From: Sphingobacterium alimentarium
GTDB taxonomy: Bacteria > Bacteroidota > Bacteroidia > Sphingobacteriales > Sphingobacteriaceae
DNA: 64,000 bases
Direction: 5' to 3'
NCBI RefSeq assembly: GCF_004342685.1
Contig: NZ_SMBZ01000002.1
Span: 62,001-126,000 of the forward strand
The notes under the pieces were generated by a model. That model was not told where the DNA came from and made no database searches. It worked only from the letters and a program-made list of their open reading frames with translations. Within the stretch, counting starts at the first letter, position 1. Every line of letters begins with the position of its first letter. The translations under genes and the position numbers were made by a program. Positions 23,409-28,169 of the stretch are shown here, piece after piece.

Positions 23409-24995
23409 ATGAAAAAAATCTTTTCGTTATTATTCATCTTGCCATTGGCATACAGCTGTACGGTAGCACAAAATCCGTCGAAGTATGCTAATATCATCAC
23501 GGAGCAATCCTCAAAAGATCATTTGACTATCCTAGCGAGCAAAGAATTCGCTGGAAGAGGAACAAATCAAGAAGGTGGTAAAAAAACTGTTAAATACTTA
23601 GCAGAACAATTTGAGTCTTTCGGCCTTAAGCCAGTAGTGAACGGCAGCTATTACCAACCTGTTGCTTTAATGCAGGTCGCTTACAAAGTAGACTCTTTCC
23701 AATTGGCGGGTCAATCTTTAATCAATGGCCAAGATTTCTATATACAAGGAGATAATACCAATGCGACTTTTCATGGAGAGGAAATTGTCTTCGTGGGTTA
23801 CGGTATCCAAGACGAGAAATTCAACGAGCTTAAAAATACAGACCTAACGGGCAAAATAGTGCTTGTTATCAATGAAGGTGAGCCAAAAGATGCGGATGGC
23901 AAATCTCTTATCACCGGCACAACAGATAAGTCTACTTGGTCTACAAGTCGATTCAAAAGAATTCAAGAATTGACAAAACTCAATCCAAAATTAATCTTGG
24001 CAGTCAATTCGCAAAATGAAGCGATGATCACACGCATGAATAATCGTGGAATGATGGGACGCGTAGCTTTGGACAGAGGCAATGCCGCTCCAAATCAAAG
24101 ACAATCGGTGCCTGTAGTGCATATCAAAAAATCTATTGCAGATCAATTATTAGCGAAAGTAAACACTAGTTTTGATCAATTTATCGCAACAAAATCTGCA
24201 GCACCATCAACTGCTAAAGTTATTAAATCAGCATTGCATGCATCTATGGGTGTGAAGCAAGAAAAATTCACTGACCCTAATGTTGTTGGTTTCTTAGAAG
24301 GATCTGACTTAAAAGACGAAATTATCGTCGTATGTGGTCACTGGGATCATGATGGAATATTGCCAGATGGAACTTATTTTCCAGGTGCCGATGATAATGG
24401 TTCTGGAACTGTTGCTGTCGTAGAATTAGCTAAAGCTTTTGCTCAAGCAAAAAAAGACGGTAAAGGTCCACGTCGTAGCATTTTGTTTATCGCATTAGCA
24501 GCAGAAGAAAAAGGATTATTAGGCTCGCAATTTTATGTAGAGAACCCAATCTTTCCTTTAGCACAAACTGTTGCTTGTATAAATATCGATATGATTGGTC
24601 GTATTGATGACAAACACTTGAATGGCGATCACAATTATATCCACGTAATCGGTGTAAACAAGTTAAGCACAGACTTAAAGCCTATCGTAGAAAAAGCGAA
24701 TGCTGAAATCAAAATGAAATTAGACTATGACTATGATCATCCTGAGGAGCCAATGCGTCTGTACTACCGTTCGGATCATTACAATTTCGCGAAGAATGGA
24801 ATCCCTTCTTTATTCTTTTTCTCAGGCTTACACCCACATTACCACACACCAGAAGATACAATCGATAAGATTGACTTCACTATGATGACAAAACGTGAGA
24901 AGCTAATTTTCAACACAACATGGGAAATTGCTAATCGTGATAAAAAACCCGTAGTCGACATGCCTCTTGAAGATGCACAAGGCACAGGAAGATAA
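23409..24995 (+). CDS. M28 family metallopeptidase (predicted lipoprotein)
   Basis: Exported zinc aminopeptidase-type enzyme, 528 aa. A lipobox-like Cys is at residue 17 (LPLAYSC). The inserted PA-like domain spans roughly residues 90-240. Metal ligands are visible in order: GHWDHDG (about 309), GADDNGSGT (325), AAEEKGLLGS (364), NIDMIGR (394) and HYHTPEDT (477). It probably cleaves N-terminal residues of peptides in the periplasm or at the surface. A second, shorter M28 gene lies at 47253. Its terminator is split by a small transposed element. Confidence 0.93.
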   Translation: MKKIFSLLFILPLAYSCTVAQNPSKYANIITEQSSKDHLTILASKEFAGRGTNQEGGKKTVKYLAEQFESFGLKPVVNGSYYQPVALMQVAYKVDSFQLAGQSLINGQDFYIQGDNTNATFHGEEIVFVGYGIQDEKFNELKNTDLTGKIVLVINEGEPKDADGKSLITGTTDKSTWSTSRFKRIQELTKLNPKLILAVNSQNEAMITRMNNRGMMGRVALDRGNAAPNQRQSVPVVHIKKSIADQLLAKVNTSFDQFIATKSAAPSTAKVIKSALHASMGVKQEKFTDPNVVGFLEGSDLKDEIIVVCGHWDHDGILPDGTYFPGADDNGSGTVAVVELAKAFAQAKKDGKGPRRSILFIALAAEEKGLLGSQFYVENPIFPLAQTVACINIDMIGRIDDKHLNGDHNYIHVIGVNKLSTDLKPIVEKANAEIKMKLDYDYDHPEEPMRLYYRSDHYNFAKNGIPSLFFFSGLHPHYHTPEDTIDKIDFTMMTKREKLIFNTTWEIANRDKKPVVDMPLEDAQGTGR

Positions 24996-25022
24996 TACAT
25001 ATAAAAAAAGCTAGCGAATATT

Positions 25023-25211
25023 GAGGGCACTGAAAAAGTCCTCTTCAAAAATTTGAGTATCAAAAAAAGGGAAAAAGCACATATTTTAGCCCATTGAGAA
25101 TCTCTTATTTGAAGAGTTGTTGCTAAATGCATTCAAATAAACAAAGGATAAGGGCTTATGAGTATAAAAATTCATAAGCCCTTTTTTATTGGATAGTTTT
25201 TCAGTGCCCTC
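25023..25211. mobile_element. 189-bp non-autonomous element (MITE-like or IS remnant)
   Basis: The ends are 15-bp perfect terminal inverted repeats: GAGGGCACTGAAAAA at 25023-25037 and its complement at 25197-25211. The element is flanked by an exact 8-bp direct repeat CGAATATT (25015-25022 and 25212-25219), a target-site duplication. Inside is another hairpin with a T tract (25150-25183) that resembles a transposase terminator. No transposase is encoded. The family is not assigned; 8-bp duplications occur in several IS families. It may be mobilised by a full-length relative elsewhere in the genome. Confidence 0.8.
25150..25183 (+). terminator. Terminator inside the 189-bp element
   Basis: 12-bp stem AAGGGCTTATGA with its complement (25172-25183), a 10-nt loop, followed by TTTTATT. 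It may compensate for the broken original terminator. Confidence 0.6.
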
Positions 25212-25233
25212 CGAATATTGCTAGCTTTTTTAT

Positions 25234-26073
25234 TTATAGCTTCACCTGAATGGTATCCCGGTAAATAATCTGACGCTGTTCATTCTCATACTCTAAGAAG
25301 TAGCGATTGGGCGGTAACTTCACCTTGACTATGCTATCCTTACTTTTTGCATCCAATATATGGAAGTAATTGATTCCCGTTTGCGTCTCATACTGGGCAA
25401 ATAGCTTCAGAAAGATTTTACCTTGGTTATAATCTAATCCCTCGGGGACTTTTATATCCGTATCTGCAATTGTGTCAGATATATTCTCAGCGATTAACCA
25501 ATTATCTCTATACTGCTTTTTCGAATCTTGAAGGTTTGAAGTATTGATTTTGGCCAAATATTCCAACTTACAAAACCGACAATTTTGATGCTCTTCCTTG
25601 TTAATGTAATACACGAGGCTCAAAGTCTTTTTCCCTTTCTCAAATGGAATCACCACATGCCGAATGTCCAATTGACCTAACACATAATCTTTCTCCAGAT
25701 AAAATTGCTCATCATTCACTTCCCGACGTTCAAATTCTTCTGTGCGCGGTAAAGGCTTATTATGAACCAAAGCCAATAGATTATAATGAGGAAGACCAGA
25801 GGGAACCGCAGAAAACAAGACTTTTGAACCTTTAGATTTTAAACCAGTTTTCTTCAGAACTTCTACATCATTTTCATAAAAATCATGTAGTCTAACTCCG
25901 GTACGCTCACCATCCTGATGAGGGTAGAAATTCATATAGGTCCAGACATTCAGCTTTAGCGAATGATTAAAATATTCATCAACATCATTTACAAATACAC
26001 TTTCTTTCGCAAACTTATAGGATGAACATCCTGATAATACACAACAGAACAATAAAACAAAGCAATACTTCAT
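25234..26073 (-). CDS. Predicted lipoprotein of unknown function
   Basis: 279 aa. A clear lipoprotein signal has its Cys at residue 16 (CVLSGC). I do not recognise a family. The sequence contains a Cys pair (HQNCRFCKLEY) near residue 165 and a C-terminal all-beta-looking region (KLPPNRYFLEYENEQRQIIY). It starts 2 nt after the stop of the M56 sensor gene, so it is almost certainly in the BlaI-controlled operon and may be an outer-envelope partner or output of that system. Confidence 0.65.
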   Translation of the reverse strand: MKYCFVLLFCCVLSGCSSYKFAKESVFVNDVDEYFNHSLKLNVWTYMNFYPHQDGERTGVRLHDFYENDVEVLKKTGLKSKGSKVLFSAVPSGLPHYNLLALVHNKPLPRTEEFERREVNDEQFYLEKDYVLGQLDIRHVVIPFEKGKKTLSLVYYINKEEHQNCRFCKLEYLAKINTSNLQDSKKQYRDNWLIAENISDTIADTDIKVPEGLDYNQGKIFLKLFAQYETQTGINYFHILDAKSKDSIVKVKLPPNRYFLEYENEQRQIIYRDTIQVKL

Positions 26074-26075
26074 CG

Positions 26076-27770
26076 TTACCTTTTAGTCAAATCCAAACGA
26101 ATCGGTAAAGCATATGCCACCCTTACAGGCTTTCCATTTTGTATACCTGGAGACCATTTTTTTGAAGTTTTTAAAACTTCTACAGCAGCCTCACCTGTGC
26201 CATGCCCTAAATCCCGTGTGGCCTTGATATCGCTAAGCGCGCCATCTTTCTCCACAACAAACGTAACGGTAACCGTTCCCTTAACTTCTGCATCAATAGC
26301 GGCTTTAGGATACTTATAATTATCAGCGACCCATTTACGGTAAGCAACTAACCCACCTGGTGGCTCAGGCTGAATTTCAGCTTGAGAAAAGGTTTCTTTC
26401 TTTTCCTTATCGTCAAGTATTAATTGACCACCACTTTTACCACGAATCGTATCTTTTGCGATGTCTTGTGTATAATCCGAGACTCTATCCATGCCTACTA
26501 AATTTATTCGTATTGGCATTTCAAAAGCAAAACGAACTTTGCGACCATTTTGAATAGCAGGCGACCACTTAGGTGCTTTTTTTAGAACATTTACAGCAGC
26601 TTCACCTGTACCATGGCCGATATCTTGTACAGCTTTAATATCTGACAATGAACCATCCTTTTCTACTACAAACCGCACCCTAATCGTTCCTTTAGCACCT
26701 GCATCAATAGCAGCTTGGGGATATTGATAATTATCACCAATCCATTTGCGAAAAACACTCATCCCTCCTGCAGGTTCAGGCAATATTTCTGTCTGTTTGA
26801 AAATTTCATTTCCACCTTCTTTTATTGTGTCCTGCGCTATTGCGTTACTACTATGTTCAGCATTTTGATAAATATTCGATTGAGAAGTATTTTCATTATC
26901 AACTGCTAATTTTAAATCCTCCATTTTTGATTCCACATTAGCGACTACTCCTTTTGCTCTAGAAGTATTAAATACAACAGTAGACAATCCAACAATTAGT
27001 GCCGCAGGGACAATTCCCAAATACAGAAAACGTTTATTTTTTGATGATTTATTTTTAAATAACATCATGATTCTTTTCTTTAAAAATGATTGATTGGAAA
27101 ACTCATGCACCAGTACATTTTGGGGTACTTTCATCGCATGGGCTACTAATAACTCGGCATAAGCTACTTTATCTTCCGAACTCAATTCGTCTTCAATACA
27201 TTCATGCTGGAATTTGATTTCTTTTACCAAACGGTAGACGATAGGATTAAACCAATTGAACGCTTTAAACAGTTCCATAAAAACAACATCATAACTATGT
27301 CCTTGTTCCATATGGATTTGTTCATGACGTTCTACACTCGCATATTGCTTTATCTCTTTTCCTAAGAATATTTTGTTGAAGAAGGAAAACCCCAAATAAT
27401 TGGAGTTGCTGCGAAACATCTCCCTTACTTGCCATAATTGCCATCCCAGCAACCCTAAACTTATCAATAGGCCGATGGCATAAATCCATATTAAAAGGTC
27501 TAAGAGTACAAGGGACGTGCGCTGTGCAGTGCCCACCACCACAGATACATCTATGATCTCTTCCATATTGACAATCGGAATATATACCTGATCATCAAAA
27601 TAAGAAGACAAATCAATAAATAATCCTATAGGGATGAGTAAAGCAAAAATCACAGTTCCTAATAAGTACAGCCTATTCCATTGGAAAAATGTCAATTTGC
27701 GTAGCGTGAAATAATAGATCATATAGCCTAAGCTTACAGCTACATTGACCAATAGCAGATAAATTACCAT
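26076..27770 (-). CDS. M56 (BlaR1/MecR1-type) membrane protease with two TonB C-terminal-like domains
   Basis: 564 aa sensor-type membrane protein. Transmembrane helices occupy roughly residues 2-55 and 85-110. The cytoplasmic gluzincin motif HEQIH is at residues 149-153, and a further helix lies near 247-266. The C-terminal half carries two tandem TonB-C-type domains (about residues 325-425 and 460-564), each with YPxAAID and FVVEKDG elements. Such proteins relay an envelope signal by cleaving BlaI-type repressors. The blaI-like gene lies directly upstream and a lipoprotein gene directly downstream. The inducer is unknown; beta-lactam response cannot be assumed without a penicillin-binding domain. 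Confidence 0.88.
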   Translation of the reverse strand: MVIYLLLVNVAVSLGYMIYYFTLRKLTFFQWNRLYLLGTVIFALLIPIGLFIDLSSYFDDQVYIPIVNMEEIIDVSVVVGTAQRTSLVLLDLLIWIYAIGLLISLGLLGWQLWQVREMFRSNSNYLGFSFFNKIFLGKEIKQYASVERHEQIHMEQGHSYDVVFMELFKAFNWFNPIVYRLVKEIKFQHECIEDELSSEDKVAYAELLVAHAMKVPQNVLVHEFSNQSFLKKRIMMLFKNKSSKNKRFLYLGIVPAALIVGLSTVVFNTSRAKGVVANVESKMEDLKLAVDNENTSQSNIYQNAEHSSNAIAQDTIKEGGNEIFKQTEILPEPAGGMSVFRKWIGDNYQYPQAAIDAGAKGTIRVRFVVEKDGSLSDIKAVQDIGHGTGEAAVNVLKKAPKWSPAIQNGRKVRFAFEMPIRINLVGMDRVSDYTQDIAKDTIRGKSGGQLILDDKEKKETFSQAEIQPEPPGGLVAYRKWVADNYKYPKAAIDAEVKGTVTVTFVVEKDGALSDIKATRDLGHGTGEAAVEVLKTSKKWSPGIQNGKPVRVAYALPIRLDLTKR

Positions 27771-27800
27771 AACGAAAGTTTATAAGTAGTTTATAATTTT

Positions 27801-28169
27801 TTATTTATGCTTATTGATAATATTCAAAATATCATCCAGATCTTTTACATCCAATTTGCTTTCTTCCAGAAAGTAGGAAAGCATCTGCTTGGGTGAATTT
27901 TCAAAATATCCACTTAACAGTTTATCAGCGACTACTTTTTTGTAATCTTCCTTGCTGATTGCGGGAATGTATTTGTGACTTTTACCATAAGTTTGATGAT
28001 TCACAAAACCCTTGGTTTCGAGAATACGTATAATCGTAGAAACAGTATTGTATGCAGGCTTTGGTTCGGGTAATCGGTCGATTACTTCTTTTACGAAGCC
28101 CTCGCCCATCTCCCACAGTTCGTGCATAATTTGCTCTTCCGCCTTTGTTAGTTCTTTGATTTCGTCCAT
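27801..28169 (-). CDS. BlaI/MecI/CopY family transcriptional repressor
   Basis: 122 aa winged-helix repressor. The N-terminal LTKAEEQIMHELWEMGEGFV and PAYNTVSTIIRILETKGFV are the family DNA-binding signature. The C-terminal part is the dimerisation region, which M56 proteases cleave. It is first in a three-gene operon with the M56 sensor (gap 30 nt) and a lipoprotein. Two palindromes in the upstream region are likely operators, implying autorepression. Confidence 0.92.
   Translation of the reverse strand: MDEIKELTKAEEQIMHELWEMGEGFVKEVIDRLPEPKPAYNTVSTIIRILETKGFVNHQTYGKSHKYIPAISKEDYKKVVADKLLSGYFENSPKQMLSYFLEESKLDVKDLDDILNIINKHK

Follow-up and report, generated by a model that had tools for sequence, protein, structure and literature searches.

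The window analysed here, a stretch of 64,000 nucleotides from Sphingobacterium alimentarium, contains a 189-bp element lodged in the loop of a predicted terminator between two converging genes. This raises the question of whether such an element reaches a terminator loop by chance and survives there, or whether terminators are chosen as targets, and by which feature they would be recognised. The features at the locus are the following, in window coordinates.

23409..24995, + strand: left flanking gene, M28-type peptidase (named by resemblance; orthologues found), with its 3' end served by the terminator
25004..25015, no strand: left arm of the interrupted bidirectional terminator hairpin, AAAAAAGCTAGC; pairs with the right arm after excision in silico
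25015..25022, + strand: left copy of the 8-bp target duplication, CGAATATT; read from the sequence
25023..25211, + strand: 189-bp MITE with IS1182-type ends; from the sequence and the genome copies
25023..25037, + strand: left terminal inverted repeat, GAGGGCACTGAAAAA; identical ends occur on full-length ISs
25150..25183, + strand: terminator-like hairpin inside the MITE, with a T-rich tail after it; from pairing and covariation
25197..25211, - strand: right terminal inverted repeat of the MITE; read from the sequence
25212..25219, + strand: right copy of the 8-bp target duplication, CGAATATT; read from the sequence
25220..25231, no strand: right arm of the interrupted terminator hairpin, GCTAGCTTTTTT; read from the sequence
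25234..26073, - strand: right flanking gene, convergent, lipoprotein-like, 279 aa; its orthologue is convergent in both genomes with an empty site (L033 and L035)

The sequence-only reading had described perfect 15-bp inverted ends and an exact 8-bp repeat on both sides, and a reread confirms both: one end is GAGGGCACTGAAAAA and the other matches its reverse complement at 15/15 positions, and the flanking repeat is CGAATATT. Its claim that a 12-bp hairpin with A and T tracts is restored on removal of the element and one repeat also holds, as the joined flanks form a perfect 12-bp stem with a 7-nt loop and with A6 and T6 as the outer pairs. The MITE separates the 3' ends of a convergent gene pair, in agreement with the proposed insertion into a terminator loop between converging genes. 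The empty site that the same reading had suggested looking for was found at the level of other Sphingobacterium species and not of a sister strain. Two of them, S. bovisgrunnientis (L033) and S. cavernae (L035), have this convergent pair with an intact hairpin, TAAAGCTAGGTCATTAACCTAGCTTTA, which aligns to the joined flanks of the window and whose arms, AAAGCTAG and CTAGCTTT, match the window arms. An Rfam search of the insertion region gave no match. By resemblance, the region adjoining the lipoprotein gene (26076-28169) encodes a regulator of the BlaI/MecI type and a membrane protein of the BlaR1 type (M56), whose C-terminal part has two TonB-like repeats.

The element is not a chance arrangement, since the same genome holds 12 near-full-length copies of 187-189 bp at 95-100% identity, each with its own exact duplication of 8 or 9 bp. 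One diverged copy (C6) and a 703-bp internal-deletion derivative (C28) are also present, and relatives of 70-95% identity occur in other Sphingobacterium genomes. The element is thus a MITE by all of its features: it is short, lacks a transposase gene, has inverted ends and a duplication, and exists as near-identical copies. In several relatives (L061-L064, L095 and L164) only the right half matches (about query positions 109-189), which contains the terminator hairpin, and the left half looks as though it had been swapped.

Two full-length ISs with the same ends, C31 and C36 (1738 and 1762 bp), were found in this genome, and together with the differing duplications of the 12 copies they bear out the earlier view of a mobile, non-autonomous element. 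The MITE and the ISs have only their ends in common (about 29 bp), including the same 15-bp end. The transposase gene is of the IS1182 family and is interrupted in both copies, so that both full-length elements with the ends of the MITE are broken in this assembly, and intact ones occur in relatives. The assignment rests on the DDE transposase type, with Pfam DUF772 and DDE_Tnp_1_6 domains, and on the terminal inverted repeats common to IS and MITE. Transposase fragments of both ISs match NF033551 with E values of 1e-43 to 8e-61 and, being fragments, fall under the whole-protein cut-off. Genome G027 has at least eleven IS copies at 96-97% identity with a long open frame, which encodes 486 aa in the two copies translated. 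When this intact transposase was compared with 296 genomes of the phylum, only fragments were found outside the genus.

The sequence-only reading had left open whether terminator loops are a general preference, and the answer is that terminator targeting is general in these elements. All 16 copies examined in this genome split a site composed of an A-tract, a stem and a T-tract, and nearly all full-length ISs in nine other genomes (G027, G093, G086, G017, G032, G040, G014, G015 and G081) have the same target type. By sequence, the target is predicted to be of the intrinsic terminator type, a G+C-containing hairpin followed by a T-tract at a gene 3' end. For a quantitative comparison, a hairpin score made for this analysis (3 per G-C, 2 per A-T and 0.5 per G-T pair, one mismatch allowed) was applied identically to targets and background. 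A hairpin scoring at least 20 is centred on the duplication in 45 of 55 non-redundant insertions, defined by a duplication with at least 7 of 8 bases matching, versus 0.36% of 21,267 window positions.

The position of the insertion within the target is precise. The hairpin centre lies 0.06 +/- 0.62 nt (s.d.) from the duplication centre, and 44 of the 45 targets have A- and T-tracts 12-15 nt either side of the hairpin centre. Counted from the duplication centre, A makes up 87-96% at positions -15.5 to -12.5 and T makes up 91-96% at +12.5 to +15.5. The stem and the loop lack a sequence consensus, except for A/T at the very centre. The duplications are all distinct (47/47 tested). Since the insertion is centred on the hairpin axis, the loop and the closing base pairs are duplicated and the two arms are split.

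These observations bear on the possibility that insertion is random or weakly selective, and that terminators of convergent genes are merely where insertions survive with the least harm. The orientation of the neighbouring genes, set by simple open frames, would suit such an explanation, with 30 convergent, 15 tandem and no divergent pairs at the 45 classifiable sites. However, survival alone would scatter insertions over intergenic space, whereas the centres agree to 0.62 nt and the tracts stand in a fixed register. In addition, the copy in a Metabacillus plasmid has on either side a fragment annotated as an HD-domain protein, and even there the site is an A-tract...T-tract one with a weak palindrome. 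Selection by survival is therefore regarded as very improbable, and we infer that the transposase itself reads a feature of the terminator.

The tract register is tighter than ordinary terminator geometry, as it is found in 58 of 99 bidirectional-terminator-like hairpins (drawn from 864 kb in two genomes) and in 81 of 235 intergenic hairpins, compared with 44/45 targets (Fisher 2e-7 and 7e-17, respectively). The transposase could read two short, two-fold symmetric A/T tracts about 24 bp apart in ordinary duplex, with the hairpin as a passenger. The strong A and T frequencies at symmetric positions are consistent with tract reading, and so are four MITE sites in other genomes (L052, L055, L072 and L074) that now lack a hairpin but still show A and T tracts in or close to register; the tracts could thus be as important as the hairpin. 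The duplication length also agrees, as it stays at 8 bp (9 in a few copies) although the loop varies from 3 to 10 nt, unlike what is expected from cutting at the edge of an extruded loop. On the other hand, only 35 of 178 background AAAA-N24-TTTT sites (28 of the 72 intergenic ones) have a centred hairpin scoring at least 17, compared with 47 of the 55 insertion sites, so the palindrome makes a contribution. A test of whether the A/T register suffices to define the site gave only partial confirmation. The two comparisons taken together, 44/45 versus 58/99 for the tracts and 47/55 versus 28/72 for the palindrome, indicate that both contribute, and a transposase that reads the tracts alone remains a tentative proposal.

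In the second physical model, the transposase recognises an extruded cruciform, a mode put forward for IS1272, and loop duplication follows from joining at that point (pathway c in Fig. 13 of PMC5678879). The transposase belongs to the same family as that of IS1272, hairpins of unrelated sequence are used and the duplication is loop-centred, all of which would be expected from cruciform recognition. This pathway predicts a duplication as long as the loop, however, and the near-constant length described above does not follow it; IS1272 itself makes no duplication (PMC4923244, PMC5678879). We consider the cruciform model possible but doubtful, much like tract reading. The fixed length at variable loops suggests instead strand transfer with a normal stagger, into a target of two-fold symmetry, and not loop-edge cutting. 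A third model, in which targeting is coupled to termination itself through a paused polymerase, an R-loop or supercoiling, and not to DNA sequence or shape, accords with targets that are terminators located mostly between convergent genes. It appears improbable, since exact two-fold centring and a fixed register are more easily obtained by direct DNA recognition. The three models of physical recognition refine the core proposal and do not compete with it, and the confidence placed in them is not to be summed with that placed in the core proposal.

At 10 of the 55 sites the centred hairpin scores below 20. Most of these ten show a weaker hairpin, or A/T tracts in or close to the register. Besides the four hairpinless sites, these low-score sites include stems scoring 17-18 (L084 and L091), a large loop (L156) and mismatches (L092). 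A matching duplication is absent from the IS copies L128, L130, L151, L158, L160 and C31 (L086), probably through recombination between copies or decay. Some of these copies still have complementary arms.

The elements also carry predicted terminators of their own. The internal hairpin that the sequence-only reading had noted in the MITE, and had taken for a terminator, is present with 12 bp and a T-rich tail, and shows compensatory changes that preserve it. Pairing is seen in 95.3% of cells over 18 distinct sequences, and 5 of the 12 pairs are changed on both sides. None of 500 shuffles, which take no account of relatedness among the sequences, reached as high a value, and a slid-partner control gave far lower values. 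In the full-length ISs, an inward-facing terminator-like hairpin lies just inside the inverted repeat at 55 of 57 distinct ends, which are not independent because many are close relatives, versus 1 of 270 internal segments, in a scan that admitted loops longer than 10 nt. The two exceptions have a strong hairpin and a weak T-tract. Diverged relatives (L162 in G015, and L274, L275 and L277), including those from Bacillota and Bacteroides, have inward hairpins of unrelated sequence in the same places at both ends, so it is the position and not the sequence that is conserved. Judged from sequence, the most likely role of the built-in terminators is to end transcripts of the flanking genes in place of the split terminator, and to protect the element against transcription entering from outside. 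As terminator sites are nearly always used and terminators are carried along, the spread of the elements would probably cost the host little.

The same kind of site is used by plasmid-borne relatives with 53-64% transposase identity in Peptoclostridium, Bacteroides fragilis, Priestia, Enterococcus and Metabacillus. The Priestia and Enterococcus relatives have clear 8-bp duplications within terminator hairpins, while repeats of 9 bp were read by eye in those of Peptoclostridium, B. fragilis and E. raffinosus. On a Priestia megaterium plasmid (L279), a more distant IS1182 transposase directly adjoins a gene with a reverse-transcriptase domain.

A distant IS1182 group (L168-L207, in G086, G027, G039, G060 and G036) is also abundant in the genus, with elements of about 1.77-1.82 kb and a transposase of about 570 aa that is about 27% identical. 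The elements of this group have no 8-bp target duplication. In many copies the left flank is rich in A and the right flank in T, an arrangement that resembles IS1272-type replacement. Complementarity over 10-20 bp between the flanks of three G036 copies gives the impression that the element took the place of a terminator stem. Replacement of the IS1272 type is not claimed for this group, as flank complementarity is only marginally higher than for swapped flanks (6.3 versus 5.6 of 12). In G027 (C1, about 2.858-2.860 Mb), elements of the two groups are nested (L133 and L187), with an IS of the 8-bp group inside the loop of a hairpin, GAAGGTGTCTAAAAAGGCACCTTC; this hairpin is the end of a distant-group element.

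Based on these observations, we propose with high confidence that the MITE would be mobilised in trans by an IS1182-family DDE transposase that picks bidirectional intrinsic terminators (an A-tract, a G+C-rich palindromic stem, a short loop and a T-tract). Insertion would be a conventional 8-bp staggered event on the axis of symmetry of the hairpin, and the elements would bring their own terminators, one inward hairpin at each IS end and one inside the MITE. We lean, by a small degree, towards the broader view that an IS1182 branch extending across phyla has co-evolved terminator selection, by two-fold symmetry and tract spacing, with paired inward replacement terminators as a low-damage strategy.

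Gene end signals would then provide a natural and quantifiable rule by which a transposase finds safe landing sites. Recognition of structure versus sequence in the IS1182 family becomes directly testable, as closed genomes hold many independent insertions, and insertion at gene ends that leaves genes undisrupted is suggested as a practical idea. Split terminators in these bacteria are often the marks of such elements, which calls for caution in annotation.

Among the known systems, group IIC introns are retroelement ribozymes that insert beside a stem-loop, and terminators are among their known targets. They are similar to the present elements in stem-loop targeting, but they leave the stem-loop intact and are not known to have terminal repeats or a duplication. 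These mobile introns recognise a DNA stem-loop as their target (PMC10190682). ISs that target REP palindromes, such as ISRm22, insert into extragenic palindromes that are often located between convergent genes (PMC1525189). The use of extragenic palindromes is shared, but their targets are specific repeat families and not terminators of unrelated sequence.

A review of the IS1182 family, as quoted in PMC4923244 and PMC5678879, states only that some members target palindromes, and gives no detailed data. The elements described here resemble the family generally in their transposase domains, their length of about 1.7-1.8 kb and their terminal inverted repeats, and they add to the description, as far as it is quoted, a specified register, centring and built-in terminators. 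In a search of the freely accessible literature, the only terminator-targeting IS found was IS1272, with the REP-targeting ISs as a less close case. As far as this literature extends, the dyad-centred 8-bp mode, the tract register, the paired inward terminators and the MITEs sharing the strategy are new, and an earlier description is possible.

The closest system is IS1272 / TnSha1 of Staphylococcus, also of the IS1182 family, whose targets are hairpins of unrelated sequence that include several confirmed terminators (PMC4923244, PMC5678879). Both systems combine an IS1182-family transposase with hairpin or terminator targets of unrelated sequence. Inward terminators and MITEs are features of the present elements and not of the IS1272 descriptions, as far as these were available. 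Wan et al. (PMC5678879) sketched a hypothetical pathway in which an IS that targets hairpins duplicates the loop; the loop-centred outcome is alike, but the length seen here does not track the loop. IS1272 inserts bluntly and deletes the stem-loop, whereas the present elements retain both arms and make an 8-bp duplication centred on the dyad, with no replacement of the stem-loop. The dyad-centred 8-bp mode is thus distinct within the IS1182 family.
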